DNA of 64,000 nucleotides from Cyanobium sp. AMD-g (lineage in GTDB: Bacteria > Cyanobacteriota > Cyanobacteriia > PCC-6307 > Cyanobiaceae), in assembly GCF_024346395.1 (NCBI RefSeq), contig NZ_JAGQCW010000009.1, positions 1-64,000 on the forward strand. Direction: 5' to 3'. Below, one piece after another: positions 41,496-55,704 of the stretch (the stretch's first letter is position 1; the number at the start of each line of letters is the position of its first letter). Below the pieces are notes generated by a model. The model was not told the origin of the DNA. It made no database searches and saw only the letters and a program-made list of their open reading frames with translations. Both the position numbers and the translations under genes were made by a program.

Positions 41496-42743
41496 TCAGC
41501 CATCGCTGCGCTGGGCGATCAGGGCTTCGTAGGCCGTGCAGAACACCTCGCCCAGGGAGTCCCGCAGCGGTCCGTCGTGGCGGAACGCCTCCAGGGCATC
41601 GGCCTGACAGGTGGGCAGGGAGGGCGCACCGTCGGGTGCCTGCACATAGGTGTTTCGATCGCTGCGGGGGCCAGGGTCGAGGCGGCGTTCGATGCCGTCG
41701 AGCCCCGCCGCCAGCACGGCGGCCTGGAGCAGATAGGGGTTGGCGGCGCCGTCACCGAGGCGCAGTTCGATCCGTTGGTCGTCGGGGATGCGCACCATGT
41801 GGGTGCGGTTGTTGCCGCCGTAACTGATCCAGGACGGCGACCAGGTGGCACCGGAGCTGGTGACCGATCGGGCCAGGCGCCGGTAGCTGCCGGCCACCGG
41901 ATTGGTGAGGGCGCACAGGGCCGGGGCGTGGGCCAGCAGGCCGGCGAGAAACTGATAGGCGAGTTCCGACAGGCCCTTCTCCCCCGCAGGGTCGTGGAAC
42001 ACGTTGTGCCCCGCTTCGTCCCAGAGGGAGGCGTGCAGGTGGGCGCCGTTGCCGGTGAGGGCCGGGATCGGCTTGGGCTGGAAGCTCACCCGCACGCCAT
42101 GGCGTTCAGCCAGCGCGGCCGCCATGACCCGGAAGAAGGCATGGCGGTCGGCGGTCAGCAGGGATTCGGCATAGGTCCAGTTGAGCTCGAACTGGCCGTT
42201 GGCGTCCTCGTGATCGGCCTGGTACGGCCCCCAGCCGAGGTTCTCCATGCCCTCGAGCAGCTCACTGATCAGGGGGTAATGGCGCATCAGGGCCAGCTGG
42301 TCGTAGCAGGGCTTCGACTGCCGATCGAGTCCATCGGCGATGGCCTCCCGCTCCGGGTCCATCAGGAAGAACTCCGCCTCCACGCCACTGCGGAACTGCA
42401 GGCCCAGGGCGGCCGCCCTGGCGATCTGCCGTTGCAGCACACGGCGGGGGGACTGCTCCAGCGCCACGCCCTCCACCTGCAGATCGGTGGCCACCCAGGC
42501 CACCTCCTTCTGCCAGGGCAGCACCATCAGGCTGGTGGCATCGGGGATCGCCAGCACGTCCGGGTCGGCCGGCGTCATGTCGAGCCAGGCGGCGAAACCG
42601 GCGAAACCGGCCCCGGAACGGGCCAGTTCGGCGGCCGCGGCGGCTGGTACAAGCTTGGCCCGCTGCACCCCGAACAGATCGCAGAACGAGAACAGGAAGT
42701 GCCGGATGCCATGGGTGGCGGCGAAGCGGGCCAGGTCGGTCAT
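41496..42743 (-). CDS. glutamine-synthetase-family ligase (gamma-glutamyl-type), copy 1
   Basis: 415 residues, shorter than GlnA. Metal/ATP residues conserved with GS are GVEAEFFLMD, DHEDANGQFELNW, GNGAHLHASLWDE (HxH intact), NPVAGSYRRL and RIELRLGDGAANPYLLQAA. The N-terminus FLFSFCDLFGVQRAKLVP is the GS beta-grasp. Such short GS-like proteins ligate glutamate to amines other than ammonia (ethanolamine, polyamines, isopropylamine). The substrate here is unknown. It ends a minus-strand block after a desaturase and a hydrolase, and has a paralogue at 49766 inside the guanidine operon. Confidence 0.88.
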   Translation of the reverse strand: MTDLARFAATHGIRHFLFSFCDLFGVQRAKLVPAAAAAELARSGAGFAGFAAWLDMTPADPDVLAIPDATSLMVLPWQKEVAWVATDLQVEGVALEQSPRRVLQRQIARAAALGLQFRSGVEAEFFLMDPEREAIADGLDRQSKPCYDQLALMRHYPLISELLEGMENLGWGPYQADHEDANGQFELNWTYAESLLTADRHAFFRVMAAALAERHGVRVSFQPKPIPALTGNGAHLHASLWDEAGHNVFHDPAGEKGLSELAYQFLAGLLAHAPALCALTNPVAGSYRRLARSVTSSGATWSPSWISYGGNNRTHMVRIPDDQRIELRLGDGAANPYLLQAAVLAAGLDGIERRLDPGPRSDRNTYVQAPDGAPSLPTCQADALEAFRHDGPLRDSLGEVFCTAYEALIAQRSDG

Positions 42744-42785
42744 CGGTTGGTGGTGAGGGGATGGGGGACGGGGGCCTTGGCGACG

Positions 42786-43817
42786 TCAGCCGGCGCAGAG
42801 CCGGTCCACGGCGGCCCGCAGCTGGCGCTGCTCGGCCGGGGCGTCCCGGGGATTGCCGGCCCTGTGCCCCAGGTCGGACTCCAGGACCTCGAAGTGGGCA
42901 CCGCTGATCAGGGCGGCCTCGGCTCCACAGTCCTCGGGGGTGAAGTAGAGGTCGTGGCGACCGGCGATCACGGTGGTGCGGGCCTGGATCCGGCCCAGGG
43001 CTGCGGCCAGATCGGCCTCGGCGTCCCCCGTGGCGACCCCCGCGGCGGCGGCCACATCGTTCGTCAGCCAGACATCCAGCATCGCCAGCAGGTCGTGGGG
43101 GTCGTGGCGGCGGTAGGCCGGCAGCCAGGCCTCCTCCACGTAGGCCTCGACGCTGGTGTAACCCAGCTGCTGATGGGCACCGCGGCGGTAGAAGGACTGG
43201 CTCGCGGCCCAGCTGGCGTAGATGAGGGCAAAGGTGCGCAACCCCTGCTCCGGTGCACCCCGGAAGCGGTGTCCATCCCAGCTGGAATCGGCAGTGAGGG
43301 CCTGGCGCAGGCTGAGCAGGAACACCCGGTTGTGGGCCGTGGTGCGCGCCGTGCCACACACACAGCACATCCGCTGGGTTCGTTCCGGCTCCAGCACCCC
43401 CCAGTGGTAGGCCTGCTGGGCCCCCATCGACCAGCCGTAGATCAGGGCCGGCGAGGTCACCGCGAACACCTCCTCCAACAGCCGGCGCTGGGCGGCCACG
43501 TTGTCGCGGTGATCGACGGGCCAGCGGCCGCCGGCCAGCCCAGGATCACCGCTGCTCGGGCTGCTGGAGCGGCCGTTGCCGAACTGGCTCACCAGCACCA
43601 CGCACCAGCGTTCCGGATCGAGGATCGGGCCCACCACCCAGTCGATGTCCTCCGGCCAGGCGCCATAGGAGCTCGGGTAGAGCACCAGGTTGGAGCGGTC
43701 GCCTGCGAGCGTTCCGTAGACCCGGTAGTCGAGCCAGGCGGCGGGAAGCGTTCCCCCCGTGGCGAGGGGAAAATCCCCGAGCGCGAAGCGGCGCGGGGAC
43801 GCGGGGGTGGGTGGCAA
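42786..43817 (-). CDS. alpha/beta hydrolase (homoserine-acetyltransferase-like)
   Basis: About 343 residues. The fold has WLDYRVYGTLAGDRSNLVLYPSSYG, the nucleophile elbow LIYGWSMGAQQAYHW (GWSMG, serine), and a likely catalytic aspartate and histidine in ARTTVIAGRHDLYFTPED and LESDLGHRAG. This is the layout of MetX-type and related hydrolases. Without the homoserine motif its substrate is unknown: ester, amide or acyl transfer are possible. The start is uncertain; a TTG at 43817 is used, because no ATG is near. It follows the desaturase by 11 bases. Confidence 0.78.
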   Translation of the reverse strand: MPPTPASPRRFALGDFPLATGGTLPAAWLDYRVYGTLAGDRSNLVLYPSSYGAWPEDIDWVVGPILDPERWCVVLVSQFGNGRSSSPSSGDPGLAGGRWPVDHRDNVAAQRRLLEEVFAVTSPALIYGWSMGAQQAYHWGVLEPERTQRMCCVCGTARTTAHNRVFLLSLRQALTADSSWDGHRFRGAPEQGLRTFALIYASWAASQSFYRRGAHQQLGYTSVEAYVEEAWLPAYRRHDPHDLLAMLDVWLTNDVAAAAGVATGDAEADLAAALGRIQARTTVIAGRHDLYFTPEDCGAEAALISGAHFEVLESDLGHRAGNPRDAPAEQRQLRAAVDRLCAG

Positions 43818-43828
43818 GGGATCTGGAC

Positions 43829-44869
43829 TCAGGGGAGGGCGAGCCGGGAGGGGTCCTGCAGGAAGCTGCGGTGCACCGCTAGGTAGCCCTGGCCCGTGTG
43901 CACCAGATGGGGGGCCAGATGGCCATGGGCCTCGGCCAGGGCGTGAAAGGGGAGCGAGGGGTAAAGGTGGTGCTCGACGTGGAAGGGCATCTCCCACATC
44001 AGCCAGCGCAGGGGCCCCAGGGTGCTGGTGGTGCGGGTGTTGCTCAGTCCGTCGGCGTCCGTGCTGCAGCCGCCGTGCTCGGCCATCAGCACGAAGCGCA
44101 GCAGCGGCTGGCCAACCGCGAGGGGCAGCATCCAGAACCAGAATAGGGCGGCGTTGGCCTGCCACAGGGAGGCCACCAGCAGCACGGCGTAAACGCCGAA
44201 TTGAAGCCGGATCGAGCGTGTGACGGCCGCGGCCGCCTCGGCGGGGATGTAGGGCCTGCCGCCGAAGCCACCGTGCAGGCCGGCGGCATGGCCCCGGAGC
44301 TTGCCGATCCACCAGGGAAGGCCACTGAGCTCCAGCAGATAGCCGGCCAGGGTGCTGGGGGGGGCGTCCTCCAGCTCCGGATCAAGGCCCGGCTGGTGGG
44401 TGAAGCGATGGTGCCACTGGTGGTAGCGGCGGTAGTAATCGGCGTTGTAGAAGCTCAGTACACCGGCCCACCAGGCCACGGCGTCGTTGAGACCCTTGCC
44501 GGCAAAGGCGGTGCGGTGACCGCACTCGTGCATGGCGCAGAAGCCGAAAGCCAGGCCCCAGCCCAGCAGCAGCAGGCCCACCAGCCGCAGAGCCCAGAAC
44601 GCTGCAGCGGGAAGGGTGGGCGGCATGGGCCATCCCCACAGCAGAGCCCCCAGCCCGAGCACCGAGATGTGGAAGGCCAGCCGGCGCCAGCCGGGCCCGT
44701 CCCGTCGCTCGTTGAGGCGCTGCAGCAGCGGACCGGACAACAGTGGAAGAGCGGCGCCCGGGCCGGCCGCCGGTGGCGCGGAGGGTGGTGAGGCGGTCAA
44801 GAAGGTCGCCGTTGGTCGGCGGTGGGAGACGTCGTCAACCCACTGTCCCGCTCGGAGTCCGCCGGACAC
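43829..44869 (-). CDS. membrane fatty-acid-desaturase-like diiron enzyme
   Basis: 346 residues from a GTG. Three histidine boxes are intact: HECGHRT, HQWHHRFTH and HVEHHLYPS, with four membrane helices between them. This family includes acyl-lipid desaturases and hydroxylases such as beta-carotene or alkane hydroxylases. It sits in an operon with an alpha/beta hydrolase and a GS-like ligase, beside a guanidine cluster, which is not the setting of a normal lipid desaturase. The substrate may be a nitrogen compound or a lipid. It uses reduced ferredoxin or rubredoxin. The first 40 residues are low complexity and the start is uncertain. Confidence 0.85.
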   Translation of the reverse strand: MSGGLRAGQWVDDVSHRRPTATFLTASPPSAPPAAGPGAALPLLSGPLLQRLNERRDGPGWRRLAFHISVLGLGALLWGWPMPPTLPAAAFWALRLVGLLLLGWGLAFGFCAMHECGHRTAFAGKGLNDAVAWWAGVLSFYNADYYRRYHQWHHRFTHQPGLDPELEDAPPSTLAGYLLELSGLPWWIGKLRGHAAGLHGGFGGRPYIPAEAAAAVTRSIRLQFGVYAVLLVASLWQANAALFWFWMLPLAVGQPLLRFVLMAEHGGCSTDADGLSNTRTTSTLGPLRWLMWEMPFHVEHHLYPSLPFHALAEAHGHLAPHLVHTGQGYLAVHRSFLQDPSRLALP

Positions 44870-44971
44870 CGTTCGTCACGAACACTTGCACCGGGTGTGG
44901 CTCCCGGTGGGGATGGTGACCCGCCGGGGGCCTGCGGCAGGGAAGAGTGGGATCTGTGTCGTGACGCTCCG

Positions 44972-45832
44972 GTGCCTTCCCTGCTGTTCTTCTCCCTCTG
45001 GGGCTTTGAGGGGCCCCTCAGCACGGCCCTGGAGACGGCCGAGCGGGGGGGCTTCGACGGGCTGGAGCTGAACATTCAGCATCCGTCCCTGATCGGCGAC
45101 CCGGACGGACCCGCCCGCCTGCAGGAGGCCGGCAGACCCCTGGTGCTGGAGGTGGTCACCGGCGGCGGTTACGTGCCGGAGTTGGCCGTCACGCCGACGC
45201 AGCATCTGGCGGAACTTGCTGACCAACTGAGCCGATGCGCCGAACTCCGCCCCCACCGGGTGACCGTGCTCACCGGCAGCGACGCCTGGCCCCTGGAACG
45301 GCAACGGTCCTTCCTGGCCGAGGCCCAGGCGCTGGCCGCCGCCAGCGGCCTGCCGGTGAGCTTTGAAACCCACCGGTCCAGGTGCCTGGGGATGCCCTGG
45401 ACGATCACGCTGCTGCTGCAGGCCGTCCCGGGGCTGCGGCTGACGGCCGACCTGAGCCACTGGTGCGTCGTGTCCGAACGGCTGATGACCCCGGACCTGG
45501 AGCCGGTGCAGGTAATGGCCGACCGGGTCGACCACATCCATGCCCGGGTGGGCCATGCCCAGGGTCCCCAGGTGTCCCATCCCTTCGCCCCCGAGCATGC
45601 GGAGGCCCTGGCGGCCCATCGGGCCTGCTGGCAGCTGTTCAGTGCCCGGGCGCTGGAGCGCGGGGCGCCGCCGCCCAGCTTCACGCCCGAATTCGGACCG
45701 GACGGCTACATGCCCACCCTGCCGTTCACCGATCAGCCGGTGGCCGATCTGCTGACAATCAACACGGCGATGGCTCAGTGGTTGCGCAGCCAGCCTTTAG
45801 CTGGAAACAGCGATAAGCTGTGTTCATCGTGA
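44972..45832 (+). CDS. sugar-phosphate isomerase/epimerase-like TIM barrel
   Basis: 286 residues from GTG 44972 (no ATG fits). LFFSLWGFEGPLSTALETAERGGFDGLEL starts a barrel of the xylose-isomerase-like AP-endonuclease-2 family. Metal-site segments are LVLEVVTGGGYVP, PVSFETHRSRCLG (Glu), LRLTADLSHWCVV (Asp, His) and FTPEFGPDGYMP (Glu). The spacing E...D...H...E matches Zn or Mn epimerases. The substrate is unclear. It is divergent from the desaturase operon and lies between the two nitrogen blocks. It may form part of the same pathway. Confidence 0.78.
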   Translation: MPSLLFFSLWGFEGPLSTALETAERGGFDGLELNIQHPSLIGDPDGPARLQEAGRPLVLEVVTGGGYVPELAVTPTQHLAELADQLSRCAELRPHRVTVLTGSDAWPLERQRSFLAEAQALAAASGLPVSFETHRSRCLGMPWTITLLLQAVPGLRLTADLSHWCVVSERLMTPDLEPVQVMADRVDHIHARVGHAQGPQVSHPFAPEHAEALAAHRACWQLFSARALERGAPPPSFTPEFGPDGYMPTLPFTDQPVADLLTINTAMAQWLRSQPLAGNSDKLCSS

Positions 45833-45835
45833 ACA
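45821..45835. promoter_or_regulatory. palindrome TGTTCA-TCG-TGAACA
   Basis: Perfect 6-3-6 inverted repeat spanning the isomerase stop codon and 13 bases before the start of the small gene. It could be an operator (size typical of ArsR/MerR-like regulators) or a weak hairpin. No regulator gene for it is adjacent. Confidence 0.3.
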
Positions 45836-45848
45836 GAGTTACGTCGTG

Positions 45849-46064
45849 ATGAACGTGATCGACGCCCCGACCACCACGCCGTCGGCCAACCATTCCAGCG
45901 GAGGGTCCGATCTTCGCCAGGCTGCACTGGTTGCATCCCTGCGCGCCCGCTACGCCATCGCTGAGCAGCGCCAGGACGCGGACGCCAAGCGGGCCCTGTT
46001 CAAGGAGGCCGCCTACCTGGGCATCCGCCCCGACGCGTACCAGGGCTCCAGCAGCGCCGCGTAG
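45849..46064 (+). CDS. small hypothetical protein
   Basis: 71 residues from ATG 45849. After a Thr/Ser-rich tail at the N-terminus comes a helix-rich core, DLRQAALVASLRARYAIAEQ and ADAKRALFKEAAYLGIRPDAY. The 3' end overlaps the Rieske gene on the opposite strand by 52 bases. It has a plausible coding bias, but no known family. Confidence 0.45.
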   Translation: MNVIDAPTTTPSANHSSGGSDLRQAALVASLRARYAIAEQRQDADAKRALFKEAAYLGIRPDAYQGSSSAA

Positions 46065-47062
46065 ATCGCCTGCTGGTGCAGGATCCGGGCCTCCAGCCGG
46101 TGCGGCGGCCCGGTGCGGAACCCCTCGCCGTACCCCCGCTCGGCGGATTCCACCAGCGCGCGGTCTTCGGCGAGGAACTGCACCATCTCCGCCATCAGGG
46201 ACTGCCCTTCCCCCAGGCGCTCCTGCGGGCCCAGAAGCCACACCTGCATGGTGCAGCTGTCCAGATCCTTTGGCAGAAACTGGATCAGGGCCAGGCGTCC
46301 GTCGGGCCACAACAGCAGGTGGTTCCAGGGCGGCAGACCGAAGGTGAGGAATTCGGCGTCCCCTTCCTGCCACGGGGTGGCCAGAACGTTGGCCCAGGTG
46401 CCGAACCGATGGCTGTAGTGGCGTACCGGCCCCTGCATCCGGTGCAGGGTGGTGGGATGGGCGATGGCGACGTGGTAATCGTCGAGGGTGTTGTCGTGGG
46501 CGATTTTCCAGTTGCAGGCCAGGGTTTGCCTGTGGAAGGCCAGGGACGCCAGGGGACGGGCCAGGGCAACGGCGGCTTCCTGCAGCGGCAGATCGAGCTG
46601 CTCATCGAGGGGGATCGGATCGGCACCAAGGGCCACCCAGAGCAGGGAGGCCCGCACCTGGCAGGCGAGGGCCTCCAGCGGCCAGGCTTCGCGATCGAAC
46701 GGTTCGATGAACTCCGCTTCCCGAGCGGCCGCCAGCAGCGTTCCGCCTAGGTCGTAGGTCCAGCCGTGGTAGGGGCACACCAATCTGCGGCAGGCCACGG
46801 TCCCCTCGGCCGGCTCCCGGAAGGCCACGGCCCGGTGGGGACAACGGTTGCGGAAGGCCCGAACGACGCCATCGCTGCCGTGGCAGAGCAGCACCGGCAG
46901 GCCCTGCAGTTCCACCGCCCGTACATGGCCCGCGGGGAGCTCGGCGGCCGCGGCGACGGGATGCCAGAAACGCGATGCATAGTGCACGCGCTCAAGGGCG
47001 GCGACGGCCTCGGAGCGGTAGAGCTCCGGAGGCAGGAAAGCGGCTGTGGCGGCGGACGGCAT
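46013..47062 (-). CDS. Rieske non-heme iron oxygenase
   Basis: 349 residues from ATG 47062. Rieske cluster ligands CPHRAVAF and CPYHGWTYD (CxH-x17-CxxH). The catalytic domain has KIAHDNTLDDYHVAIAHPTTLH with aspartate and two histidines for mononuclear iron. It is a one-protein alpha-type oxygenase like PaO or N-demethylating enzymes, needing ferredoxin reductase from elsewhere. The ATG lies 10 bases after the guanidine-type ABC ATPase, so it is the last gene of that run. N-demethylation or hydroxylation of a substituted guanidine is my inference. Confidence 0.88.
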   Translation of the reverse strand: MPSAATAAFLPPELYRSEAVAALERVHYASRFWHPVAAAAELPAGHVRAVELQGLPVLLCHGSDGVVRAFRNRCPHRAVAFREPAEGTVACRRLVCPYHGWTYDLGGTLLAAAREAEFIEPFDREAWPLEALACQVRASLLWVALGADPIPLDEQLDLPLQEAAVALARPLASLAFHRQTLACNWKIAHDNTLDDYHVAIAHPTTLHRMQGPVRHYSHRFGTWANVLATPWQEGDAEFLTFGLPPWNHLLLWPDGRLALIQFLPKDLDSCTMQVWLLGPQERLGEGQSLMAEMVQFLAEDRALVESAERGYGEGFRTGPPHRLEARILHQQAIYAALLEPWYASGRMPR

Positions 47063-47072
47063 GGCAGGGCGC

Positions 47073-47840
47073 TCAGAGCAGGGAGCCATCCAGGCTGCGC
47101 AGGCGTCCCGCCAGTTCCTCGCGCAGTTCCAGGAAGGGTTGGGACACCCGCAGGTGGCGCAGATCGGAGCGATCCAGCTGCACGGCCACGGTGTGAACAA
47201 TCCTGCCTGGCCTCGGCGCCATGATGTGGACTGTGCCGGCGAGCAGCAGGGCTTCCTCGATGTCGTGGGTGATCAGCAGGGCCGTGAGCCCCGTGGTCTT
47301 CCAGAGGTCGTGGAGGAACTCCTGCATGGACTCCCTGATCTGCAGATCCAGCGCCCCGAAGGGCTCATCCAGCAGCAGCACCTTCGGCTCGGTGGCCAGG
47401 GCCCGGGCGATCGCCACCCGCTGCTGCATGCCCCCGGAGAGTTCCCGCGGCAGCAGCCGGGCCGCGTCCGCCAGGCCGACGACGTCGAGGAAGTAGGCGG
47501 TCCGATCGCGGATCTCTGCCTTGCCCCTGCCCTGGAGCGACAGGCCGAAGGCGACGTTCTGGGCCGCCGTGAGCCAGGGGTAGAGACTGTACTTCTGGAA
47601 TACCATGCCCCGGTCGGATCCGGGGCGCCGGACCTGCTCACCATCCAGGTGGATGGTGCCCTCACTGGGCCGCTCCAGACCGGCGATCAGCCGCATCACG
47701 GTGGATTTGCCTGACCCCGAGCTTCCCACCAGGGCCATGAACTGGCCGGACACCAGCTCGAAGCTGATGTCCTCGAGGACGAGCTTGCGATCACGCCCCT
47801 CACCGAAGCTCTTGGAGACGTTGGAAACCTGGAGATGCAT
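47073..47840 (-). CDS. ABC transporter ATP-binding subunit (nitrate/taurine/guanidine type)
   Basis: 255 residues. Walker A GSSGSGKST, Q-loop region FQKYSLYPWLTA, signature LSGGMQQRVAIA and Walker B VLLLDEPFGALD are all intact, with the D-loop and LLITHDIEEAL. It belongs to the SsuB/TauB/NrtD subfamily that powers import of small organic or inorganic ions. The permease stop lies 5 bases upstream of its start. Together with the permease and lipoprotein it forms a complete importer downstream of the guanidine riboswitch genes. Confidence 0.93.
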   Translation of the reverse strand: MHLQVSNVSKSFGEGRDRKLVLEDISFELVSGQFMALVGSSGSGKSTVMRLIAGLERPSEGTIHLDGEQVRRPGSDRGMVFQKYSLYPWLTAAQNVAFGLSLQGRGKAEIRDRTAYFLDVVGLADAARLLPRELSGGMQQRVAIARALATEPKVLLLDEPFGALDLQIRESMQEFLHDLWKTTGLTALLITHDIEEALLLAGTVHIMAPRPGRIVHTVAVQLDRSDLRHLRVSQPFLELREELAGRLRSLDGSLL

Positions 47841-47845
47841 GGGGT

Positions 47846-48622
47846 TCAGTTGGCCCAGGAACAGGCCCGACGCATCAGGAATCGGAAGCCGAGATCGATG
47901 ATCAGGCCGATCAGGCCGATCACGATCAGTCCGACGAAAATCTCATCGGTGCGCAGGAATCTCTGGGCCAGGCTGATGCGTTTGCCCAGGCCTTCGTTGG
48001 CCGCCACCAGTTCGGCAACGATCACGAGATTCCAGGCGGACGCCATGTTGATCCGGTAGGTGTCGAGCACCTGGGGAGCAATGAAGGGGGCCACCACCCT
48101 GGTGAGGATCGGCAGACCCCGACCCCCCAGGGTGAGGGCCGTTTCCACAAGTTCTGAGGGAACGAACTTCACCGCATCCATGATCATCAGAGTGTTGAAG
48201 AAAAAGGTGCCGATGAAGATGAGCATCACCTTGGGTAGCTCTTCCAGACCGAAATAGATGATCAGCAGGGGTATGAAGGCCGGCGCCGGCATGTACCGGA
48301 TCAACCCCATCAGCGGCTCGAGCAGATAGCAGATGGTTCGGTTCGTGCCCATGGCGATGCCGATCGGCAAGGCCAGCCCGGCGGAGATCACGAATCCCAG
48401 GAAGACCCTCTGGATGCTGGCGATGGCGTCCTTGACCAGAATCCCCTGCTGGAACTGATCACTGCCCGCCAGCCACACCGCCCCGGGCCCGGGCAGGAAG
48501 AGCTTGTCGACCATGCCACTGGAGGTGGCGAGGAACCACACAACAAAGACCGTGATGATGCCGAGCACCCCCAGGACCCAGGGGTGATGGAAGAAGCGGC
48601 GCAGGGCAGGAGACCAGACCAT
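47846..48622 (-). CDS. ABC transporter permease (SsuC/TauC type)
   Basis: 258 residues from ATG 48622 (a TTG at 48631 overlaps the preceding stop). Six membrane helices are visible. The EAA loop is in ETALTLGGRGLPILTRVVAPFIAPQVLDTYRINMASAWNLVIVAELVAANEGLG, the SsuC pattern of nitrate, sulfonate and taurine importers. Length fits a homodimer. The pocket cannot be read for substrate. Confidence 0.93.
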   Translation of the reverse strand: MVWSPALRRFFHHPWVLGVLGIITVFVVWFLATSSGMVDKLFLPGPGAVWLAGSDQFQQGILVKDAIASIQRVFLGFVISAGLALPIGIAMGTNRTICYLLEPLMGLIRYMPAPAFIPLLIIYFGLEELPKVMLIFIGTFFFNTLMIMDAVKFVPSELVETALTLGGRGLPILTRVVAPFIAPQVLDTYRINMASAWNLVIVAELVAANEGLGKRISLAQRFLRTDEIFVGLIVIGLIGLIIDLGFRFLMRRACSWAN

Positions 48623-48627
48623 GGCGG

Positions 48628-49638
48628 TCAAGGGGCGTTGTCGACGAACTGGGAATTCAGCAGGTTGGTCAGGTCAGGCTTGTTCTTGGCCAGGCCTGTT
48701 TCCAGAAGGAAGACGCTGATCTGCTCGGCGGCATAGGGCAGCGACAGCATCGTGGTGCCCTGTTTGAAGTTGCTGCGGTTTTCCGCCAGGGTCTGGATGG
48801 TGGTGCCGGCGTTGTACGCCTTGAACTCCGCCTCGCTGACACCGGAGCGCTCCACCAGGATTGGCAGGGTGCCGGCGGGATCCTCCTCAATGGTCTTGAG
48901 GGTGGCGAACCAGGCATTGACGATCTTCTGGACTTTCTCAGGATTCTTGGCGACGAAGTCGGTGCGGCAGACGAGCAGGTCGCTGATCGCCCCCGGATGG
49001 TCCTTGGAGGTGGCCAGCGCCCGGCTGCCGGGACGCTTCAGGGCCTGGGTGGTGAAGGGCGCATAGACGCCCGCCGCATCCACCTTGCCGGCGGCGAAGG
49101 CCGCAGCAGCGGCGCCGGTTTCCAGGGGGACGAAGGTGATGTCCTTGGCGGAGAGCCCCGCCTCCTTGAGCACCTTCAGCAGCAGGAAGTGGTCGACCGT
49201 ACCTTCCTCGGCGGCCACCTTCTTACCCTTCAGACCAGGGATGGAGGTGATTTCCGCTGCGGCGATGATCTGGTCGTTGCCTGTGGAGAAATCGTTCTGC
49301 AGCACGACCTGCAGATCCGCACCGCCTGCCACGGAACTGATGGTGTCGTTGAGGGTCTGGCTGTTGCAGTCAAGCTGGCCGGCGTTGAGGGCATTGATGG
49401 AGTCGAGGTAACCGTCGAACCACTGCATCGATGCCGCCACACCCTGCGCCTTGAACAGGTCCTTGACCTCAGTGACTTTCCATGGGAACCAGCCTGGCCA
49501 GGCGCTGTAGCCGATCTTCACGGGTGCCTCCTGGCTGGCAGGTTGCTGGCAACCGGCCAGCAACCCTCCCCCGAGGGTGGCCATCAGGACGAGGGAAATC
49601 GCCCGGCGTTGACGACGAATGAAGGAGGGTTTCAACAT
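48628..49638 (-). CDS. ABC substrate-binding lipoprotein, guanidine-importer candidate
   Basis: 336 residues from ATG 49638. Signal peptide with lipobox LLAGC (cysteine about residue 31). Mature protein VKIGYSAWPGWFPWKVTEVKD then NAGQLDCNSQTLNDTISSVAGGADLQVVLQNDFSTGNDQIIAAAEITSI is an NMT1/ThiY-type binding fold. Synechocystis has an ABC transporter of this kind (sll1080-1082 region) in the same operon as GdmH, HypA and HypB, which is the basis for guanidine. The protein binds the substrate at the outer face of the membrane. 127 bases separate it from the GS-like gene, room for an extra promoter. Confidence 0.85.
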   Translation of the reverse strand: MLKPSFIRRQRRAISLVLMATLGGGLLAGCQQPASQEAPVKIGYSAWPGWFPWKVTEVKDLFKAQGVAASMQWFDGYLDSINALNAGQLDCNSQTLNDTISSVAGGADLQVVLQNDFSTGNDQIIAAAEITSIPGLKGKKVAAEEGTVDHFLLLKVLKEAGLSAKDITFVPLETGAAAAAFAAGKVDAAGVYAPFTTQALKRPGSRALATSKDHPGAISDLLVCRTDFVAKNPEKVQKIVNAWFATLKTIEEDPAGTLPILVERSGVSEAEFKAYNAGTTIQTLAENRSNFKQGTTMLSLPYAAEQISVFLLETGLAKNKPDLTNLLNSQFVDNAP

Positions 49639-49765
49639 CAGGAGATTCGGGGAAAGGGTGGCGTTTTGTAGAAGGGGCTCAGAGCTGATTTCGGCGTATT
49701 GGGAGATCACCTTGAGCGATGGTGTTCGCGGTGTCAGTGATGGTTGAAGCGCTTTGCTGAGGGCG

Positions 49766-51130
49766 TCAGAAGAACTCCAGATAACGCTGCTGCTCCCATT
49801 CGGAAACCGCAGAGTGGTAAGACTCCCACTCTTCTCTTTTGTAGGTGATAAATGCCTTGAACATGGCATCACCGAATACGCTTTTAGCAAGTGGATCCTG
49901 GGAGAAAGCATCGACGGCTTCGCCGAGGGTTCTCGGCAGCATCGTCAGGCCCCGTTCAGCCCGTTCTGCTGCGCTGAGTGTGTAGGCATTGACCAGATTG
50001 GGCGCACCCGGATCCAGTTCTTCGCGGATTCCTTCCAGCCCGGCTGCGAGCATCAGGGCGGCGCCAAGATAGGGGTTGCAGGAAATGTCGGCGGCCCGGC
50101 ACTCCACCCGTCCACCTGGTGAGGGAATGCGCAGCATATTGGTGCGATTGTTGTTGCCGTAGCACACGAAAACCGGAGCCCACGTGAATCCTGACATGCT
50201 CCCCTGCGCCACCAATCGCTTGTAACTGTTCACCGTCGGGGCGATCACCGCGCAGATGGCGGGTGCGTGGCGGAGAACGCCGGCGATGAAGTGCTCGGCC
50301 AGTCTGGTGACCTTCCCCGGGGTGGCTTCGGGGGTGGCAAACAGGTTGGCGCCCGTCTGTCCATCGGCCAGGGACATGTTGAAGTGGGCGCCGCTGCCGG
50401 TGCGATCGCCGAAGGGCTTGGGCATGAAGGTGGCCAGCAGGCCATGGCGATGGGCGATCTCCTTGGCCATCAGCTTGAAGAAGGTGAGCCGATCGGCCAT
50501 GGTGAGGACTTCGGCGTAATCGAAGTCGGTTTCGAACTGGCCAGGACCATCCTCGTGATCGAAGGAATAGACCCCCCAGCCCAGATCGTTCATGGCCTGC
50601 ACCAGTTCGTCCAGCCAGGGCAGGTTGTCGAGCAGGCCGCGTACGTCGTAGGCGGGTTTGTCGAGAGTGTCGCGATCGCTGTAGGGCACCCAGCCGCCCG
50701 CCGCGCCTTTCTTGAGCACGAAGAATTCGGTCTCGATGCCGAGGTTGAAGCGGAAGCCCATGGCGGTGGCCTCCTGGCGGACACGGCCGAGGATGTGGCG
50801 ACTGCAGGCGTCGAAGGGCTGGCTGTGCAGATGCAGGTCACTGGCGAACCAGGCCACCTCCCGCTGCCAGGGCAGCACCGTGACACTGGCTGGATCGGGG
50901 ACGGCGGCCACCTCGTCGTCGCTCACCTCCTGGGGCACCCCATCGAGGGCCGCTCCGGTGAACAGTTCGGAGCCGGCCATCATCTGGCCCAGATGCTCGA
51001 GGGGCACGGCCTTGGCCTTGCTGACGCCGTGCAGATCAACGAAGCTCGCCAGGGCGTATCGGACCCCCTTGGCCCGCAGGTCGGCCTGCAGGGCTGCGGT
51101 CGGGTCGGAGGCTGGATGCTGGTGACTCAT
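49766..51130 (-). CDS. glutamine-synthetase-family ligase, copy 2, guanidine operon
   Basis: 454 residues. GS hallmarks are YALASFVDLHGVSKAKAVPL, GIETEFFVLKK, FDHEDGPGQFETDF, TGSGAHFNMSL and RVECRAADISCNPYLGAAL. The second histidine of the canonical HxH is asparagine here (AHFN), which would alter the catalytic pocket. It is likely a glutamyl-ligase acting on an amine other than ammonia. Its ATG overlaps the hypB2 stop, so it is translated with the nickel chaperones. Glutamylation of guanidine-derived products, or a regulatory role, are both only hypotheses. Paralogue at 41496 keeps both histidines. Confidence 0.88.
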   Translation of the reverse strand: MSHQHPASDPTAALQADLRAKGVRYALASFVDLHGVSKAKAVPLEHLGQMMAGSELFTGAALDGVPQEVSDDEVAAVPDPASVTVLPWQREVAWFASDLHLHSQPFDACSRHILGRVRQEATAMGFRFNLGIETEFFVLKKGAAGGWVPYSDRDTLDKPAYDVRGLLDNLPWLDELVQAMNDLGWGVYSFDHEDGPGQFETDFDYAEVLTMADRLTFFKLMAKEIAHRHGLLATFMPKPFGDRTGSGAHFNMSLADGQTGANLFATPEATPGKVTRLAEHFIAGVLRHAPAICAVIAPTVNSYKRLVAQGSMSGFTWAPVFVCYGNNNRTNMLRIPSPGGRVECRAADISCNPYLGAALMLAAGLEGIREELDPGAPNLVNAYTLSAAERAERGLTMLPRTLGEAVDAFSQDPLAKSVFGDAMFKAFITYKREEWESYHSAVSEWEQQRYLEFF

Positions 51131-51831
51131 CAGGCGTGGATCAGGGCTGGGGTGGTCTGAACGCTGGTCAGCTGGGCGGCGAGCCAGTCGTGCCAGGCGT
51201 CGAAGCCTGCACCGCTGGTGGCGGAGAGGCGGAACACGGCGCAGCGGGGATTCACCTGGCGGATGTGGGCTTCGATCCGCTCCACATCCACCGGCAGGTG
51301 GGGCAGGAGGTCCACCTTGGTGATCAGCACGCAGTCGGCTTCCCGGAACATGACCGGGTACTTGAGCGGCTTGTCGTCGCCCTCGGTGACGCTGAGGAGG
51401 GCCACCTTGCGGTGCTCACCGATGGCGAATTCGGCGGGGCAGACCAGGTTGCCCACGTTCTCCACCCAAAGCAGATCCAGTCCGGCCGGGTCCAGCCGCT
51501 GCTGCAGGAGCTTCAGCCCACCGCTCACCATCGCGGCATCAAGGTGGCAGGCGCGGCCGGTGGTGATCGGCACCACCGGAATCCCCACGGCCTCCAGCCG
51601 CTCGGCATCGAGCAGGGTGGTCATGTCGCCTTCCAGCACAGCCATGGCCCAGCGGCTGGAGAGGGAGGCCAGGCTGCGCTCCAGCAGGGACGTCTTGCCG
51701 GCCCCGGGGCTGCTCATCACGTTGAGGCAGAGCAGGTTCCAGGCGTCGAAGTGCTCGCGGTTGTGGTCGGCCCGGTGCTGGTTGGCCGCCAGCAGGTTGA
51801 GGCCGAGGGTGTCTTCGAGGGGCATGTGCAT
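51130..51831 (-). CDS. hypB: HypB-family GTPase, nickel chaperone for guanidine hydrolase
   Basis: 233 residues. GTP-binding motifs [15 protein letters not shown] (P-loop), [28 protein letters not shown] and [11 protein letters not shown] are typical HypB; the metal cysteine and histidine of [12 protein letters not shown] (CH) are conserved. HypB works with HypA to insert nickel. It has no long histidine tail. In Synechocystis these genes are dedicated to the guanidine hydrolase, and the window shows no hydrogenase genes. It is 6 bases after hypA and overlaps the GS-like gene. Confidence 0.93.
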
Positions 51832-51837
51832 GGCGGA

Positions 51838-52239
51838 TCAGCAGGCGGGGGTGAAGCAGGTTGCGGTGGGCGGTGTGGTGGCGGTCTCGAAGCCGTAGGC
51901 GACGGAGCGGATCCGCAGTTCGCGGCCGTTGACGATCTCCTCCATCGGGTGCTGGCAACAGGGGGAGCGGAAGCCGTTGGCTGGATCGGGGCTGTAGGTG
52001 GCCTGGCAGCGGACGCAGCGACCCACAAGGGGCACCGACTCGATCACCAGTTCGGACCCGTCGAGCCAGGTGCCCTTCACCGCATCGGACCAGGTGACCA
52101 CCAGTTGGTCGGGTTCGACGCAGGTGAAGGTGCCCACCTCAAGGTGGACCCGGTCCACCAGGGGCACCCGGGGGGCGTGCTGCTGCTTCCATTCGTGCAT
52201 GGAGAGGAGCAGGCAGCGGGTCATGTCGACTTCGTGCAC
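51838..52239 (-). CDS. hypA: HypA-family nickel chaperone
   Basis: 133 residues from a GTG. It opens MHEV (nickel-binding MHE motif), has the HypA body VDRVHLEVGTFTCVEPDQL and zinc CVRCQA and CQHP pairs. It transfers Ni2+ to the hydrolase with HypB. The start codon is 4 bases after the gdmH stop, so it is tightly coupled to it. The zinc site has an unusual CC (PCCQHP) in the second pair. Confidence 0.92.
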   Translation of the reverse strand: MHEVDMTRCLLLSMHEWKQQHAPRVPLVDRVHLEVGTFTCVEPDQLVVTWSDAVKGTWLDGSELVIESVPLVGRCVRCQATYSPDPANGFRSPCCQHPMEEIVNGRELRIRSVAYGFETATTPPTATCFTPAC

Positions 52240-52243
52240 CCCC

Positions 52244-53458
52244 CTATCTCCAGGCGCGGTCGACCTGCATGTTGCAGTCGCTGTGAAGCCAGGCAGGGGC
52301 TGACTTGCGGGGCAGCTGGCCGCTCACCACGAGGTGGGCCATGGTGTCGCAGATGACCCGGGTGGCCATCAGGGACGTCATGTCGCTGACGTCGTAGGGG
52401 GGCGAGACCTCCACCACCTCAAGGCCGCAGACCGGCACGTTGCGCACGATCAGCTCCAGCAGCTTCAGGGCTTCACGCGGCAGCAGTCCCCCCGGCTCGG
52501 GCCAGCCGGTGCCCGGCACAAAGCCGGCATCGATGCAGTCGATGTCGAAGGAGATGTAGACGCAGTCGGTGCCGTCGGTGGCCCGTTCGATGGCGTACCT
52601 GGCCGCCGCCTCCAGGCCCATGTCGCAGATGTCGGTGACGGTGAGCACGTTGGTGCCCCGCTCGCGGCAGACTTTCACCCCTTCGCGCGGCACCTGCCAG
52701 CCGCCGATGCCCAGCTGCACCAGGTTCTCCGCCGGGGCGTTGGCCATGTTGGTCGCATGGAACCACGGGGTGGTGTGCATGCGCTCGTCAAGGTCGGTCT
52801 CCTGGGTGTCGACGTGGCGATCGAAGTGGATGATGCCCACCTTCTTGTCCCCGAGGTGGCGGCAGACGCCCCGGACGGTGGGGAAGCCGATCGAGTGGTC
52901 GCCGCCCAGGATGATCGGGAAGGCGCCGCTGGCGAACACGTGGGCGATGCCCTTGGAAATCTGATCGAAGCTCTTCTCGTTGTTGGCGGGGATGGTGAAG
53001 ATGTCACCCACGTCGCAGAGCGTGATCTGCTCTCGCAGGTCGACCCCCATTTCGTAGTTGTACGGGGTGTACAGGGCTGAAATGCGCCGGATGCCCTGGG
53101 GGCCGAAGCGGGTGCCGGGGCGGTAGGTGGTGCCGCTGTCGTGGGGCACGCCCACCACAGCCACGTCAAACTGCCCGACCCGGTTCACATCCTCCAGGTA
53201 AGGGGCCTTCATGAAGGTGTTGATGCCGGCGTAGTGGGGCAGCTCGCCGCGGGAGAAGGTGGAGATGCGCCGATCGACGATGCTTTCGGCCGCCTCCAGG
53301 CCGTAGCGAAGTCCCTGGTCAACCTCCTGTTGCCAGCCCGTCAGGGGCAGGGCGGCTTCTTTCTCCAGGGCCCGGGCCCCTTCGCTGCCGGCAGGGTGAC
53401 CACCCCGCGCAAAAGCATCGGACGCATCAGCTGTGCTGCCGCTGGACGGTTCATTCAT
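52244..53458 (-). CDS. gdmH: Ni2+-dependent guanidine hydrolase (ureohydrolase family)
   Basis: 404 residues. Guanidine + water to urea + ammonia is the reaction of the Synechocystis homologue Sll1077. Two-metal arginase-fold ligands are visible: GGDHS (H188), DRHVD (D213, H215, D217) and SFDIDCIDAGF (D305, D307). About 90 N-terminal residues before the fold, as in GdmH, distinguish it from agmatinase. The riboswitch upstream, two adjacent Ni chaperones and an importer confirm the role far better than motif content. Start ATG 53458 with AGAGGT at a modest distance; another ATG 4 bases downstream is out of frame. The urea would need urease encoded elsewhere. Confidence 0.93.
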   Translation of the reverse strand: MNEPSSGSTADASDAFARGGHPAGSEGARALEKEAALPLTGWQQEVDQGLRYGLEAAESIVDRRISTFSRGELPHYAGINTFMKAPYLEDVNRVGQFDVAVVGVPHDSGTTYRPGTRFGPQGIRRISALYTPYNYEMGVDLREQITLCDVGDIFTIPANNEKSFDQISKGIAHVFASGAFPIILGGDHSIGFPTVRGVCRHLGDKKVGIIHFDRHVDTQETDLDERMHTTPWFHATNMANAPAENLVQLGIGGWQVPREGVKVCRERGTNVLTVTDICDMGLEAAARYAIERATDGTDCVYISFDIDCIDAGFVPGTGWPEPGGLLPREALKLLELIVRNVPVCGLEVVEVSPPYDVSDMTSLMATRVICDTMAHLVVSGQLPRKSAPAWLHSDCNMQVDRAWR

Positions 53459-53484
53459 TCAGACCTCTGGGCACGGTGGGAATG

Positions 53485-53632
53485 GGGCGGTCTCCCGGGC
53501 TTTTGTCCCTCCGTGCCACTCGCTGTTTCAGGGGCGTGGGCCACACAAAACAGTGAGTGTGCTTCTCTCGGACCAGACATCCATTCCACGGGTGGCAGAG
53601 CCAGCTGTGGGGGATCGGAACCCTAGAAGCAA
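53485..53632 (-). promoter_or_regulatory. guanidine-I (ykkC) riboswitch
   Basis: Read on the minus strand upstream of gdmH, the conserved ykkC blocks occur in order and spacing: CTAGGGTTCCG (near 53626-53616), CTGGTCCGAGAG (near 53576-53565), then CACGGAGGGACAAAAG and CCCGGGAGA (near 53515-53488). The first loop and the variable hairpin fit between. The last block ends about 30 bases before the gdmH ATG. Guanidine binding stabilises this fold and turns the gene on, either by preventing termination or freeing the ribosome site; the short distance suggests either. Confidence 0.95.
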
Positions 53633-53673
53633 CTTCCGCACAGGCATGGTGAAGGCCCATGGGGCTGACCGTT

Positions 53674-53687
53674 GTGACGGTTGCTAC
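53674..53687. promoter_or_regulatory. candidate NtcA site before guanidine riboswitch (one mismatch)
   Basis: GTG-N8-TAC on the plus strand, equal to GTA-N8-CAC on the minus strand, one base from the NtcA consensus GTA-N8-TAC. Its centre is about 41 bases upstream of the riboswitch 5' edge (near 53639), the spacing expected for NtcA activation. The -10 region (CACCAT) is weak. Confidence 0.3.
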
Positions 53688-53705
53688 CGGAACTCCCTGG
53701 TCGGC

Positions 53706-53984
53706 TCAGGTGGGGCAGGGGAGACCCGCCGCCTTGCGGTTGGTTTCGCGGCGCAACAACAGAAAAAGGTAGTCCGGGTCCTTGTACTGGCTCGGCAGGC
53801 ACTGGTGCAGCTGCTCGAGGCGGTGCCAGCAGACCGTTCGCTGGATCTTCTTCAGGGTTCGTCCTTCCCGGACCAACAGACGCAGAGCTTTGCAATACAT
53901 CGAATAGTTGGCCTCCAGTTCACCGATGGTGACTTTCGGGATCGTGGCCTTCGGCAGGGACGCTGGAAGCGATCGGGTGCTCAT
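53706..53984 (-). CDS. small conserved protein, RTVCW family, copy 2
   Basis: 92 residues from ATG 53984. Core YSMYCKALRLLVREGRTLKK, IQRTVCWHRLEQLHQCLP and YKDPDYLFLLLRRE. It is the paralogue of the protein at 32610-32876, with the second conserved cysteine again just before P. It lies directly upstream of the guanidine riboswitch in the same direction, but its stop is about 70 bases before it, so a separate promoter is likely. Function unknown. Confidence 0.72.
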   Translation of the reverse strand: MSTRSLPASLPKATIPKVTIGELEANYSMYCKALRLLVREGRTLKKIQRTVCWHRLEQLHQCLPSQYKDPDYLFLLLRRETNRKAAGLPCPT

Positions 53985-54210
53985 CGGCCATCCTTCGGGG
54001 CAGGCCCCGCAGAGATCCTTCCACTGTCGTCCATGGCCGGCCATCGCGCGCCCCCCAAACGGGGACATTGCCGCTGGACGCACCGCCAGGGGCTGCTGCT
54101 GCCGGCTGTGCCGATGGGGCCGGCCATGGGGGTTCGCTGACCCGAACGGGGCGATGGTGCTGCACCCCTTCCGATTCAGTTAAGGTTTTGGCAACAGATC
54201 GACACCAGCC

Positions 54211-54369
54211 ATGAACGCTGACCATCCCGTTCTGAATGCGCTGCTGGCGCAGCTCCGCTCCCTCAACGAGCAGTACAGCCGTCTGCCCAACGAAATCAAC
54301 AGGTACCGCGTTGTCCGCCAGGAGCAGCTGATCTCCCAGTGGGCCCCAGGCTTCAGCCTTGCTGCCTGA
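54211..54369 (+). CDS. 52-residue small protein, tandem copy 1
   Basis: 52 residues: MNADHPVLNALLAQL, then SLNEQYSRLPNEINRYRVVRQEQLISQWAPG. The pattern HPV-x4-L-x3-L-x2-QY and RYRxVRQEQLIxQW is repeated in the next gene, so both are real. Helical, charged, no membrane segment. Function unknown. It lies on the strand opposite to the guanidine operon. Confidence 0.75.
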   Translation: MNADHPVLNALLAQLRSLNEQYSRLPNEINRYRVVRQEQLISQWAPGFSLAA

Positions 54370-54438
54370 GCCGCCCTGCGCCTCGGGCCTTGCAGTGATT
54401 AATTTTCAATAAGATATCGATACCTCTCCGGTGAGGCC

Positions 54439-54597: not shown

Positions 54598-54741
54598 GGG
54601 TGGCTCAGCGACGTCGGCCGGGTACGGCGATCCCGGCTGAGCTTGCCAAGCGAAGTTGCCAGTTTGTCCCGGGGTGACCATTGTTGCCGTCTCTCCGCCG
54701 TGGATCGGCTATTTCGTCAACAGCTCACCTTCCGCAGTGGC

Positions 54742-55704
54742 ATGGGTAAGAAAGACAAAAGTGGTGCCAAGGTCAAGGCCGAAAAGCCCAAGGCGCTGAG
54801 CGGCAAGGGCAAGTCCGAAAAGAAATCCGGCAATGCTCACCGATCCGGCGGGATCATTGAGGCGGATCTCTACTCCCCCTCTCCCTTTTTCGACGACCTC
54901 GCCATCCATTCAGAAGGCCGTCCCCCCAAGCTGGACCGGAAGTTCTACGAGAAGGAACTGGCCCGGCTGCAGGTGGAGCTCGTCAAGATGCAGTACTGGG
55001 TGAAACATGTGGGCTACCGCATGATCCTGCTGTTCGAAGGCCGTGACGCCGCCGGCAAGGGCGGCACCATCAAACGGATCACCGAGCCCCTGAATCCCCG
55101 CGGCTGCAACGTGGTGGCCCTGGGCACCCCATCCGACCAGCAGAAGTCCCAGTGGTACTTCCAGCGTTATGTCGAGAACTTCCCTTCAGCCGGGGAGATC
55201 GTGCTCTTCGACCGCAGTTGGTACAACCGGGCCGGCGTTGAGAAGGTGATGGGCTTCTGCGCGCCGGAGCAGGTGGACGAGTTCATGCTGTCCTGCCCGG
55301 AATTCGAGCGCATGCTCGTGCGCAGCGGCATCACCCTGATCAAGTACTGGTTCTCCGTCAGCGACGATGAGCAGGAGATCCGTTTTCGCTCCCGTCTCGA
55401 GGATCCGGCCCGGCGCTGGAAGCTCAGCCCGATGGATCTGGAATCCCGCGATCGCTGGGTGGAGTTCTCCCGGGCCAAGGACGAGATGTTCGCCCACACC
55501 AACATCCCGGAGGCCCCCTGGTTCACCGTCGAGGCCAACGACAAGCGTCGGGCCAGGCTCAACTGCATCCGTCACCTGCTCAGCAAGGTCCCCTATGAGG
55601 ACATGACCCCGGCCGCCATCGAGTTGCCCCCCCGCAAGAGCGGCGGCGACTACCAGCGGCCCCCGATGAACGAGCAGTTCTTCGTCCCTAACGCTTACCC
55701 CTGA
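54742..55704 (+). CDS. ppk2: polyphosphate kinase 2
   Basis: 320 residues from ATG 54742. A lysine-rich leader (about 1-40) is followed by the PPK2 core: Walker A LFEGRDAAGKGGTIKRI, NPRGCNVVALGTPSDQQ, Walker-B-like FDRSWYNRAGVEKVMGF and the lid segment. PPK2 uses polyphosphate to phosphorylate nucleoside di- or monophosphates. With the CHAD and PhoBR genes at 8-12 kb, the strain shows a polyphosphate economy. The 3' end overlaps the CPBP gene on the other strand by 10 bases. Confidence 0.94.
   Translation: MGKKDKSGAKVKAEKPKALSGKGKSEKKSGNAHRSGGIIEADLYSPSPFFDDLAIHSEGRPPKLDRKFYEKELARLQVELVKMQYWVKHVGYRMILLFEGRDAAGKGGTIKRITEPLNPRGCNVVALGTPSDQQKSQWYFQRYVENFPSAGEIVLFDRSWYNRAGVEKVMGFCAPEQVDEFMLSCPEFERMLVRSGITLIKYWFSVSDDEQEIRFRSRLEDPARRWKLSPMDLESRDRWVEFSRAKDEMFAHTNIPEAPWFTVEANDKRRARLNCIRHLLSKVPYEDMTPAAIELPPRKSGGDYQRPPMNEQFFVPNAYP

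Follow-up and report, generated by a model that had tools for sequence, protein, structure and literature searches.

What do a glutamine synthetase-like ligase and a Rieske oxygenase do in an operon for guanidine degradation? The question is raised by a stretch of 64,000 nucleotides from Cyanobium sp. AMD-g (contig NZ_JAGQCW010000009.1, positions 1 to 64,000; hereafter the window), in which a guanidine-I (ykkC) riboswitch aptamer precedes, on the minus strand, genes for the guanidine hydrolase GdmH, two nickel chaperones, a ligase that we call GS1, an ATP-binding cassette (ABC) importer and a Rieske non-haem iron oxygenase. Close homology makes it almost certain that the core of this system would serve guanidine sensing, import, nickel loading, hydrolysis and further breakdown by urease. 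Taken as a whole, we read the locus as a guanidinase operon combined with a guanidine-freeing oxygenase and an amine γ-glutamyl ligase, a reading that in our judgment falls just short of probable.

A riboswitch-headed guanidinase gene cluster that extends to a Rieske gene

The features of the cluster, in order from the riboswitch, are as follows.

53490..53637, minus: guanidine-I (ykkC) riboswitch aptamer (RF00442, 78.4 bits, gathering cut-off 63)
52244..53458, minus: GdmH, nickel guanidinase of the arginase family (7esr/7oi1, 771 bits; PF00491; motifs)
51838..52239, minus: HypA-type nickel chaperone, with a GTG start giving MHE (PF01155, 82 bits)
51130..51831, minus: HypB-type GTPase (TIGR00073, 276 vs 121 bits; P-loop)
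49766..51130, minus: GS1, putative GmaS-type γ-glutamyl ligase (TIGR03105, 560 vs 470 bits; 9qur, 388 bits; residues)
48628..49638, minus: ABC importer substrate-binding lipoprotein, SsuA family (TIGR01728, 223 vs 163.5 bits; N-terminus ends LLAGC)
47846..48631, minus: ABC importer permease (PF00528)
47073..47840, minus: ABC importer ATPase (PF00005)
46013..47062, minus: alpha subunit of a Rieske non-haem iron oxygenase, closing the cluster (PF00355 and PF00848; ligands; model)

The aptamer was the sole gathering-level match in an Rfam scan of the 64-kb window (E 2.9e-12), and no other guanidine-I aptamer was found across the 3.12-Mb genome. It is separated from the GdmH start codon by 31 nt, and its core is invariant between the window and 29 other aptamers. 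The leader folded alone gave a z-score of -1.49, which is not significant; the evidence for the riboswitch comes from the covariance model. By this match the element is a guanidine-I riboswitch, for which guanidine binding and control of expression are predicted.

Gaps between the genes range from -4 to 10 nt, except for 127 nt 5′ of the substrate-binding protein gene. The Rieske gene begins 10 nt past the ATPase gene, an order that is kept in relatives, and the same overall gene order is found in relatives including Synechococcus sp. BO 8801 and Cyanobium sp. N.Huapi 1H5. Judging from this arrangement, the genes from the riboswitch to the Rieske oxygenase are likely to form one operon. The original prediction, made from the letters of the DNA, had placed a complete operon at 47073-53635 with its riboswitch at 53485-53632. 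It had named the right element, about 5 bases off, and the HypA, HypB, GS-family and ABC genes that it listed all lie on the minus strand behind the riboswitch, as the matches to PF01155, TIGR00073, TIGR03105 and TIGR01728 confirm; however, it missed the Rieske gene (47062-46013), and the operon is longer than proposed.

The best match of GdmH in the PDB is the Synechocystis enzyme, followed by 9fek ('Putative agmatinase 2', 587 bits), which we take to be the comammox guanidinase, while the next match reaches only 172 bits. By these scores, GdmH sits nearer to the known guanidinases than to other ureohydrolases. An N-terminal part precedes the arginase domain (residues 98-372), and the two-metal motifs GGDHS (185), FDRHVDT (212) and DIDCID (305) are identical in 7esr, which bears out the earlier description of a GdmH-type enzyme with a long N-terminus and a two-metal site. 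HypB surpasses the NCBIfam equivalog cut-off. HypA exceeds the general Pfam cut-off (28.9 bits) but not that of the equivalog TIGR00100 (71.7 vs 88.1 bits), and we therefore regard it as a divergent HypA homologue. The family and position of the SsuA-type importer fit guanidine transport. A urease alpha gene, for the step that follows guanidine hydrolysis, is present in the genome, and the predicted import and hydrolysis under a guanidine-I riboswitch are supported by homology. A guanidine-carboxylase route was rejected for the Cyanobium genome, in which no DUF1989 protein was found; two controls gave matches.

Among 388 genomes of the class, GdmH (E ≤ 1e-80) occurs in 162, and the guanidine-I core pattern was present in 82 of 104 fetched GdmH-bearing loci, which rules out chance. 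Rfam recovered the aptamer in 16 of the 17 GdmH loci scanned, the exception being L105.

Residues of GS1 point to an amine ligase rather than an ammonia-using synthetase

GS1 belongs to a family (TIGR03105) named 'type III glutamate--ammonia ligase', and its nearest solved relatives are the glutamate--methylamine ligase 9qur and RhGmaS (7cql, 323 bits). The available part of the GmaS structure paper lists residues that distinguish GmaS from ammonia-using glutamine synthetase (GS). We aligned 68 GS1-clade proteins and 14 proteins of the clade of GS2, a second ligase of the window, all from the window and fetched loci, with the GS1 set restricted to open reading frames of more than 400 and fewer than 620 amino acids. 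Near copies are frequent among the aligned proteins, and the counts that follow are therefore not independent. At the position of GS Asp50, GS1 has Thr58, as do 68/68 members of its clade (the 14 GS2 proteins have Ala, Cys or Ser), and flap Glu304 is replaced by Trp317, with Trp in 82/82 of both clades. The Asp50 and Glu304 pair that marks an ammonia-using glutamine synthetase is thus absent from GS1. Catalytic Asp177, Glu186 and Arg312 are kept in 82/82 (GS1 residues 191, 200 and 329). With RhGmaS, GS1 shares these three residues, Trp300, the loss of GS Asp50 and the type III GS family. It differs at two pocket positions, where RhGmaS Gln175 is Ser (Ser189) and Asn188 is Asp (Asp202) in 68/68 GS1 proteins each, whereas Gln and Asn are retained in 14/14 GS2 proteins. 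Because of Ser189 and Asp202, we file GS1 as a GmaS-type amine ligase and not as GmaS itself, and the change from Asn to Asp would give it a more acidic amine pocket.

These residue changes imply that GS1 should join glutamate to an amine-type nitrogen. Very probably, GS1 is an ATP-dependent γ-glutamyl ligase that takes an organic amine or a guanidino compound rather than an ammonia-assimilating enzyme; going by its sequence, ammonia is probably not its substrate, and methylamine perhaps not either. The proposal that the GS-family enzyme assimilates ammonia, which was part of the original prediction, is made very unlikely by the residues and by the PDB matches. The same analysis corrects the likely reading of 'type III glutamate--ammonia ligase' annotations in guanidine operons. 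A search of the genome for SoxD, of the methylglutamate-dehydrogenase route, gave no match, nor did any control genome.

The last gene encodes a Rieske oxygenase with a CntA-like fold

The product of the last gene has the CxH/CxxH cluster (C74, H76, C96, H99) and the 2-His-1-carboxylate site (H197/H202/D300) of Rieske non-haem iron oxygenases, and these ligands are conserved in 37/37 aligned members, the window's included. It falls outside the glycine betaine monooxygenase family GbcA (NF058607, 82 vs 670 bits). The closest fold to its AlphaFold model (pLDDT 92.6) is that of CntA (Z 36.2, rmsd 2.3, 334 residues aligned, 25% identity), followed by stachydrine demethylase (Z 33.5, 24% identity) and terephthalate dioxygenase (Z 33.0), which are tied. 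Both of these C-N-cleaving enzymes, CntA and stachydrine demethylase, hydroxylate the position next to the nitrogen, in agreement with the titles of the entries. The modelled CntA-like fold suits N-dealkylation without proving it. Residue 194, which lies three before the first iron-binding His and next to an invariant Asp, is Asp in 15/37 and Cys in 22/37 members; this position is the bridging carboxylate in known Rieske oxygenases, and CntA has Glu where the window's protein has Asp194.

Among the best 80 of 586 loci with Rieske relatives, 62 lack the signature NWK..HDNTL.DYH....H, and 60 of these 62 are without riboswitch pattern, GdmH, GS1, CgdA and CgdB, the other two having weak matches (L345 to GS1, 42%; L352 to GdmH, 27%). 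The 18 signature-bearing loci are all cyanobacterial, with GdmH or the riboswitch in the same stretch in 15 and the remaining 3 being Prochlorococcus contigs that end before the point of GdmH or riboswitch; the signature was itself part of the search pattern, and L283, L297 and L298 among the 18 come from genomes that had been sampled before. At seven loci (L239, L257, L263, L264, L267, L273, L275), a distant Rieske gene, 28-32% identical to that of the window at the protein level, stands immediately 5′ of GS1.

Rieske, GS1 and guanidinase genes are associated across cyanobacteria

In the 388 genomes, GmaS-like matches (E ≤ 1e-70) were obtained in 183, 86 of which were counted as GS1 clade (85 with best E ≤ 1e-150 and one contig fragment), and Rieske matches (E ≤ 1e-25) in 54. 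Rieske matches occur in 45/162 GdmH-positive vs 9/226 GdmH-negative genomes (genus level 17/85 vs 4/74, Fisher p 0.009), GS1 in 59/162 vs 27/226 (genus-level p 0.027), and Rieske matches in 29/86 GS1 vs 25/302 non-GS1 genomes (genus level 10/39 vs 11/120, p 0.013), with shared ancestry not removed from any of the three tests. In the 99 GdmH regions fetched, two accessory clusters lead by number of loci on the operon strand: the Rieske family, downstream in 18 loci from 4 genome families, and a GS family, in 15 loci from 4 families with GS2 copies counted. A symporter-like cluster reaches 5 families, yet just 7 loci, of which 5 lie on the operon strand.

The position of GS1 in GdmH operons varies: it follows HypB in the window and seven loci, lies between HypA and HypB in six, and lies between the substrate-binding protein and permease genes in two. 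On a quick tree, the label 'GdmH in same stretch' needs at least five changes, which implies that the association was gained or lost several times. Nine g5/g9 genomes have the Rieske gene but no GmaS-like gene at all (E ≤ 1e-70), from which we conclude that the oxygenase probably acts directly on a guanidine compound. In Prochlorococcus, GdmH and Rieske genes share one stretch in 7 of the 10 loci found, while the remaining three are truncated on the upstream side, and none of the ten Rieske loci has GS1 in its stretch. Six of these loci (L288, L290, L291, L293, L294, L296) keep the order GdmH-HypA-HypB-ABC-Rieske. No guanidine-I aptamer was found at the cut-off in these six (0/6); all six have a glutamine-II riboswitch some 5 kb further downstream.

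The modules also occur apart from the guanidinase

Under a single genus label, g171, ten loci (L223-L232) carry an aptamer-GS1-ABC-Rieske cassette without GdmH in the stretch, and Rfam confirms the aptamer in 7/7 of the cassettes scanned. Three of these genomes (G526, G426, G477) have, apart from this cassette, a GdmH-HypA-HypB locus (L090, L091, L117) with its own aptamer and no importer in the stretch, so that the system is split in two. The split is not a rule of the genus: L088 has everything except GS1 in one operon.

The Rieske gene also accompanies genes of the carboxylase type. At L248, in a genome without a GdmH match, it is followed by a guanidine-I aptamer, two DUF1989-like proteins and a guanidine-carboxylase-like protein, names that were read from the translations with the aid of the DUF1989 matches of L233. 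At L233 and L234, Rieske, MetX-like and GS1 genes adjoin an aptamer with two DUF1989 genes. Among 48 GS1 loci whose stretch holds no GdmH, 22 show the aptamer pattern; the loci were hand-picked from the search results, partly for GS1 and Rieske on one contig, and 20 further stretches were left out.

A different arrangement without aptamer, in which glutamine amidotransferase (GATase) and GS1 face GS2 and iron alcohol dehydrogenase (Fe-ADH), is seen at L258 (1471-13906), L250, L251, L259, L266, L272 and L281; at L258, this Puu-like γ-glutamyl amine set adds aldehyde dehydrogenases and a DUF1989/GCV_T fusion. A match to the nitrogen-stress RNA NsiR1 is located some 1 kb upstream from the GdmH aptamer, on the opposite strand, at L090, L091, L097 and L117, that is, in 4/9 loci scanned, all of one genus label.

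Proposed roles and alternative explanations

In the reading that we prefer, the guanidine-I riboswitch would turn on one operon, the ABC importer would take up guanidine, and GdmH, loaded with nickel by HypA and HypB, would split it into urea and ammonia, after which the urease encoded elsewhere in the genome would complete the breakdown. The Rieske enzyme might hydroxylate the N-attached carbon of an N-substituted guanidine, such as methylguanidine, and the hydroxylated product would break into an aldehyde and free guanidine for GdmH. That the Rieske step releases guanidine in this way from a compound that GdmH cannot use seems to us possible, if somewhat short of probable; the methylguanidine route of Vreelandella and the behaviour of the N. 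inopinata guanidinase, both described below, serve as precedents. GS1 might capture an amine or guanidino compound as its γ-glutamyl derivative. Together, the two extra enzymes suggest, though they do not prove, that the cyanobacterium could also draw nitrogen from guanidine-like or amine compounds of greater complexity. We also propose, with more doubt than belief, an oxidative branch of guanidine use, in which the signature-bearing Rieske enzyme would free guanidine and GS1, with its acidic pocket, would glutamylate a guanidino compound or a diamine (agmatine), as modules attached to either known pathway and often controlled by guanidine-I. If the Rieske enzyme does release guanidine, the system would offer a direct genetic test of the origin of guanidine in cyanobacteria, Prochlorococcus included; the natural origin of guanidine is called a still open question in the accessible part of a 2025 review.

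Several observations weigh against this reading. At the thresholds used, 117/162 GdmH genomes lack a Rieske match and 103/162 lack GS1. The aptamer pattern is missing from the stretch in 26 of the 48 GS1 loci without GdmH, and 7 of these 26 carry the GATase/GS2/Fe-ADH Puu-like set, with no visible link to guanidine. The operon has neither a Rieske reductase nor an MgdL-like lyase, and the tie in rank between stachydrine demethylase and a ring dioxygenase leaves the chemistry unsettled. In addition, the guanidine-I aptamer has been reported to be specific for guanidine, not methylguanidine.

Alternatively, GS1 and the Rieske enzyme might serve amines or quaternary amines (methylamine, betaine-like compounds) that enter by the shared importer, without contributing directly to the degradation of guanidine. 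GmaS uses methylamine, as far as the accessible part of its description goes, CntA uses carnitine, and some GS1-clade genes belong to the Puu-like set without a riboswitch. Nevertheless, we consider this unlikely, since the Rieske family accompanies both guanidinase and guanidine-carboxylase genes, the guanidine-I aptamer stands directly upstream of all ten GS1-ABC-Rieske cassettes, and the two pocket residues set GS1 apart from GmaS throughout its clade. Far less credible is a role of GS1 as a glutamine synthetase assimilating the ammonia from GdmH and urease. The name of its family and its genetic linkage to GdmH could be taken in this sense, but the replacements of Asp50 and Glu304 are changes described for GmaS in the available part of the literature, and the GdmH genomes without GS1 likewise speak against it.

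The two enzymes might also act in series in the style of aniline dioxygenase, with GS1 γ-glutamylating a substrate and the oxygenase acting on the γ-glutamyl derivative. Such an order is used, according to the available parts of the reports, in the aniline and 1-naphthylamine pathways, where a GS-like ligase precedes a Rieske dioxygenase, and the ten riboswitch-headed cassettes without GdmH as well as the co-occurrence of GS1 and Rieske genes across genomes would agree with it. On the other hand, 25/54 Rieske genomes have no GS1-clade gene, among them the nine without any GmaS-like match, and the Prochlorococcus Rieske loci lack GS1 in their stretches. Conversely, seven genomes (G397, G170, G421, G324, G523, G417, G503) have GS1 in or beside the GdmH operon and no Rieske match, and the operon of the window contains no GATase or reductase. 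We judge action in series to be unlikely.

Expression platform and neighbouring genes

A CCGTG anti-aptamer hairpin was rejected as the expression platform: it occurs in 7/107 aptamers vs 5.9 expected and, being limited to the window and six of its relatives, is not general. Scans of 41000-54400 for promoter and terminator patterns found nothing exceeding chance. The family of the window (L062-L078) has a short leader 3′ of the aptamer (53458-53490 in the window), and a terminator-like GGGC..TTT within 110 nt of the aptamer, a rough pattern, occurs in 3/17 of this family vs 69/90 elsewhere. A change of expression platform in picocyanobacteria is possible. In the phylum sample, 45/93 aptamer-bearing genomes belong to genome family f31, with genomes of about 2 Mb, outside the class of the window.

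Just past the operon lies a further cassette, also noted at L067, L258, L260 and L261.

43829..44869, minus: FA_desaturase-fold protein (PF00487)
42786..43886, minus: MetX-like alpha/beta hydrolase (NF005757, 352 vs 332 bits)
41496..42743, minus: GS2, second GmaS-type ligase (TIGR03105, 550 bits; 7cql GmaS, 503 bits)

By its sequence GS2 looks like an ordinary GmaS, and its part in guanidine use is uncertain. At L067, which has neither GS1 nor the Rieske gene, this cassette (41496-44869 in the window) directly follows the importer ATPase gene of the GdmH operon on its 3′ side. Upstream, the neighbours of the operon encode a PPK2 polyphosphate kinase, a DUF3136 protein and a CAAX-protease (Rce1-like) domain protein, and jointly occupy 54643-55704 (plus), 53706-54083 (minus) and 55695-58082 (minus).

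Comparison with known systems

The operon of a riboswitch, GdmH, chaperones and an ABC importer is established for Synechocystis (Wang 2021 and a review, each by its accessible part). The operon of Synechocystis PCC 6803 (GdmH/Sll1077, two nickel chaperones, Sll1080-1082 ABC) has the same riboswitch, guanidinase, chaperones and importer as the window, whereas the available text describes neither GS1 nor the Rieske gene for it. The 'additional enzymes' of the original prediction hold up with respect to GS1; the importer was already part of the Synechocystis operon. The maturation proteins of the guanidinase carry the names GhaA and GhaB in a 2026 article.

A 2023 study of marine picocyanobacteria (PMC10119275) reports, in the part available, a ykkC riboswitch in Synechococcus, hypAB, a TauABC-like importer and speB2, with a putative Rieske protein downstream in most Synechococcus/Cyanobium genomes that have the cluster. 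Its clusters Syn-eCAG_001/Pro-eCAG_004 share the riboswitch (in Synechococcus), hypAB, the importer and the downstream Rieske gene with the window, and its main text makes no mention of glutamine synthetase, glnA, gamma-glutamyl, methylamine or oxygenase. In Vreelandella boliviensis, MgdH and MgdL demethylate methylguanidine inside a guanidine-I operon (PMC12508155, by its accessible part), which is likewise extended by an oxygenase. That pathway consists of a 2-oxoglutarate/Fe(II) dioxygenase, a lyase and a carboxylase, whereas the window has a Rieske oxygenase and a guanidinase; since the protein families differ, MgdH-like methylguanidine demethylation by the Rieske protein would be an analogy only. 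For the N. inopinata guanidinase, the available text gives no detectable urea from methylguanidine.

CntA and stachydrine demethylase resemble the window's Rieske protein in fold and iron site and differ from it in gene context. The AtdA and NpaA systems, as far as the available accounts go, combine a GS-like ligase with a Rieske oxygenase as the window does, but act on aromatic substrates and include beta subunit, reductase and GATase-like genes that its operon lacks. We found no paper that joins guanidine, Rieske, glutamine synthetase and riboswitch; the GS1 link may stand in the 2022 GdmH paper or its supplements. The core of the system is already known and the link to a Rieske gene has partly been published; what the extension by GS1 and the Rieske oxygenase adds is a fairly bold reading of two enzymes.

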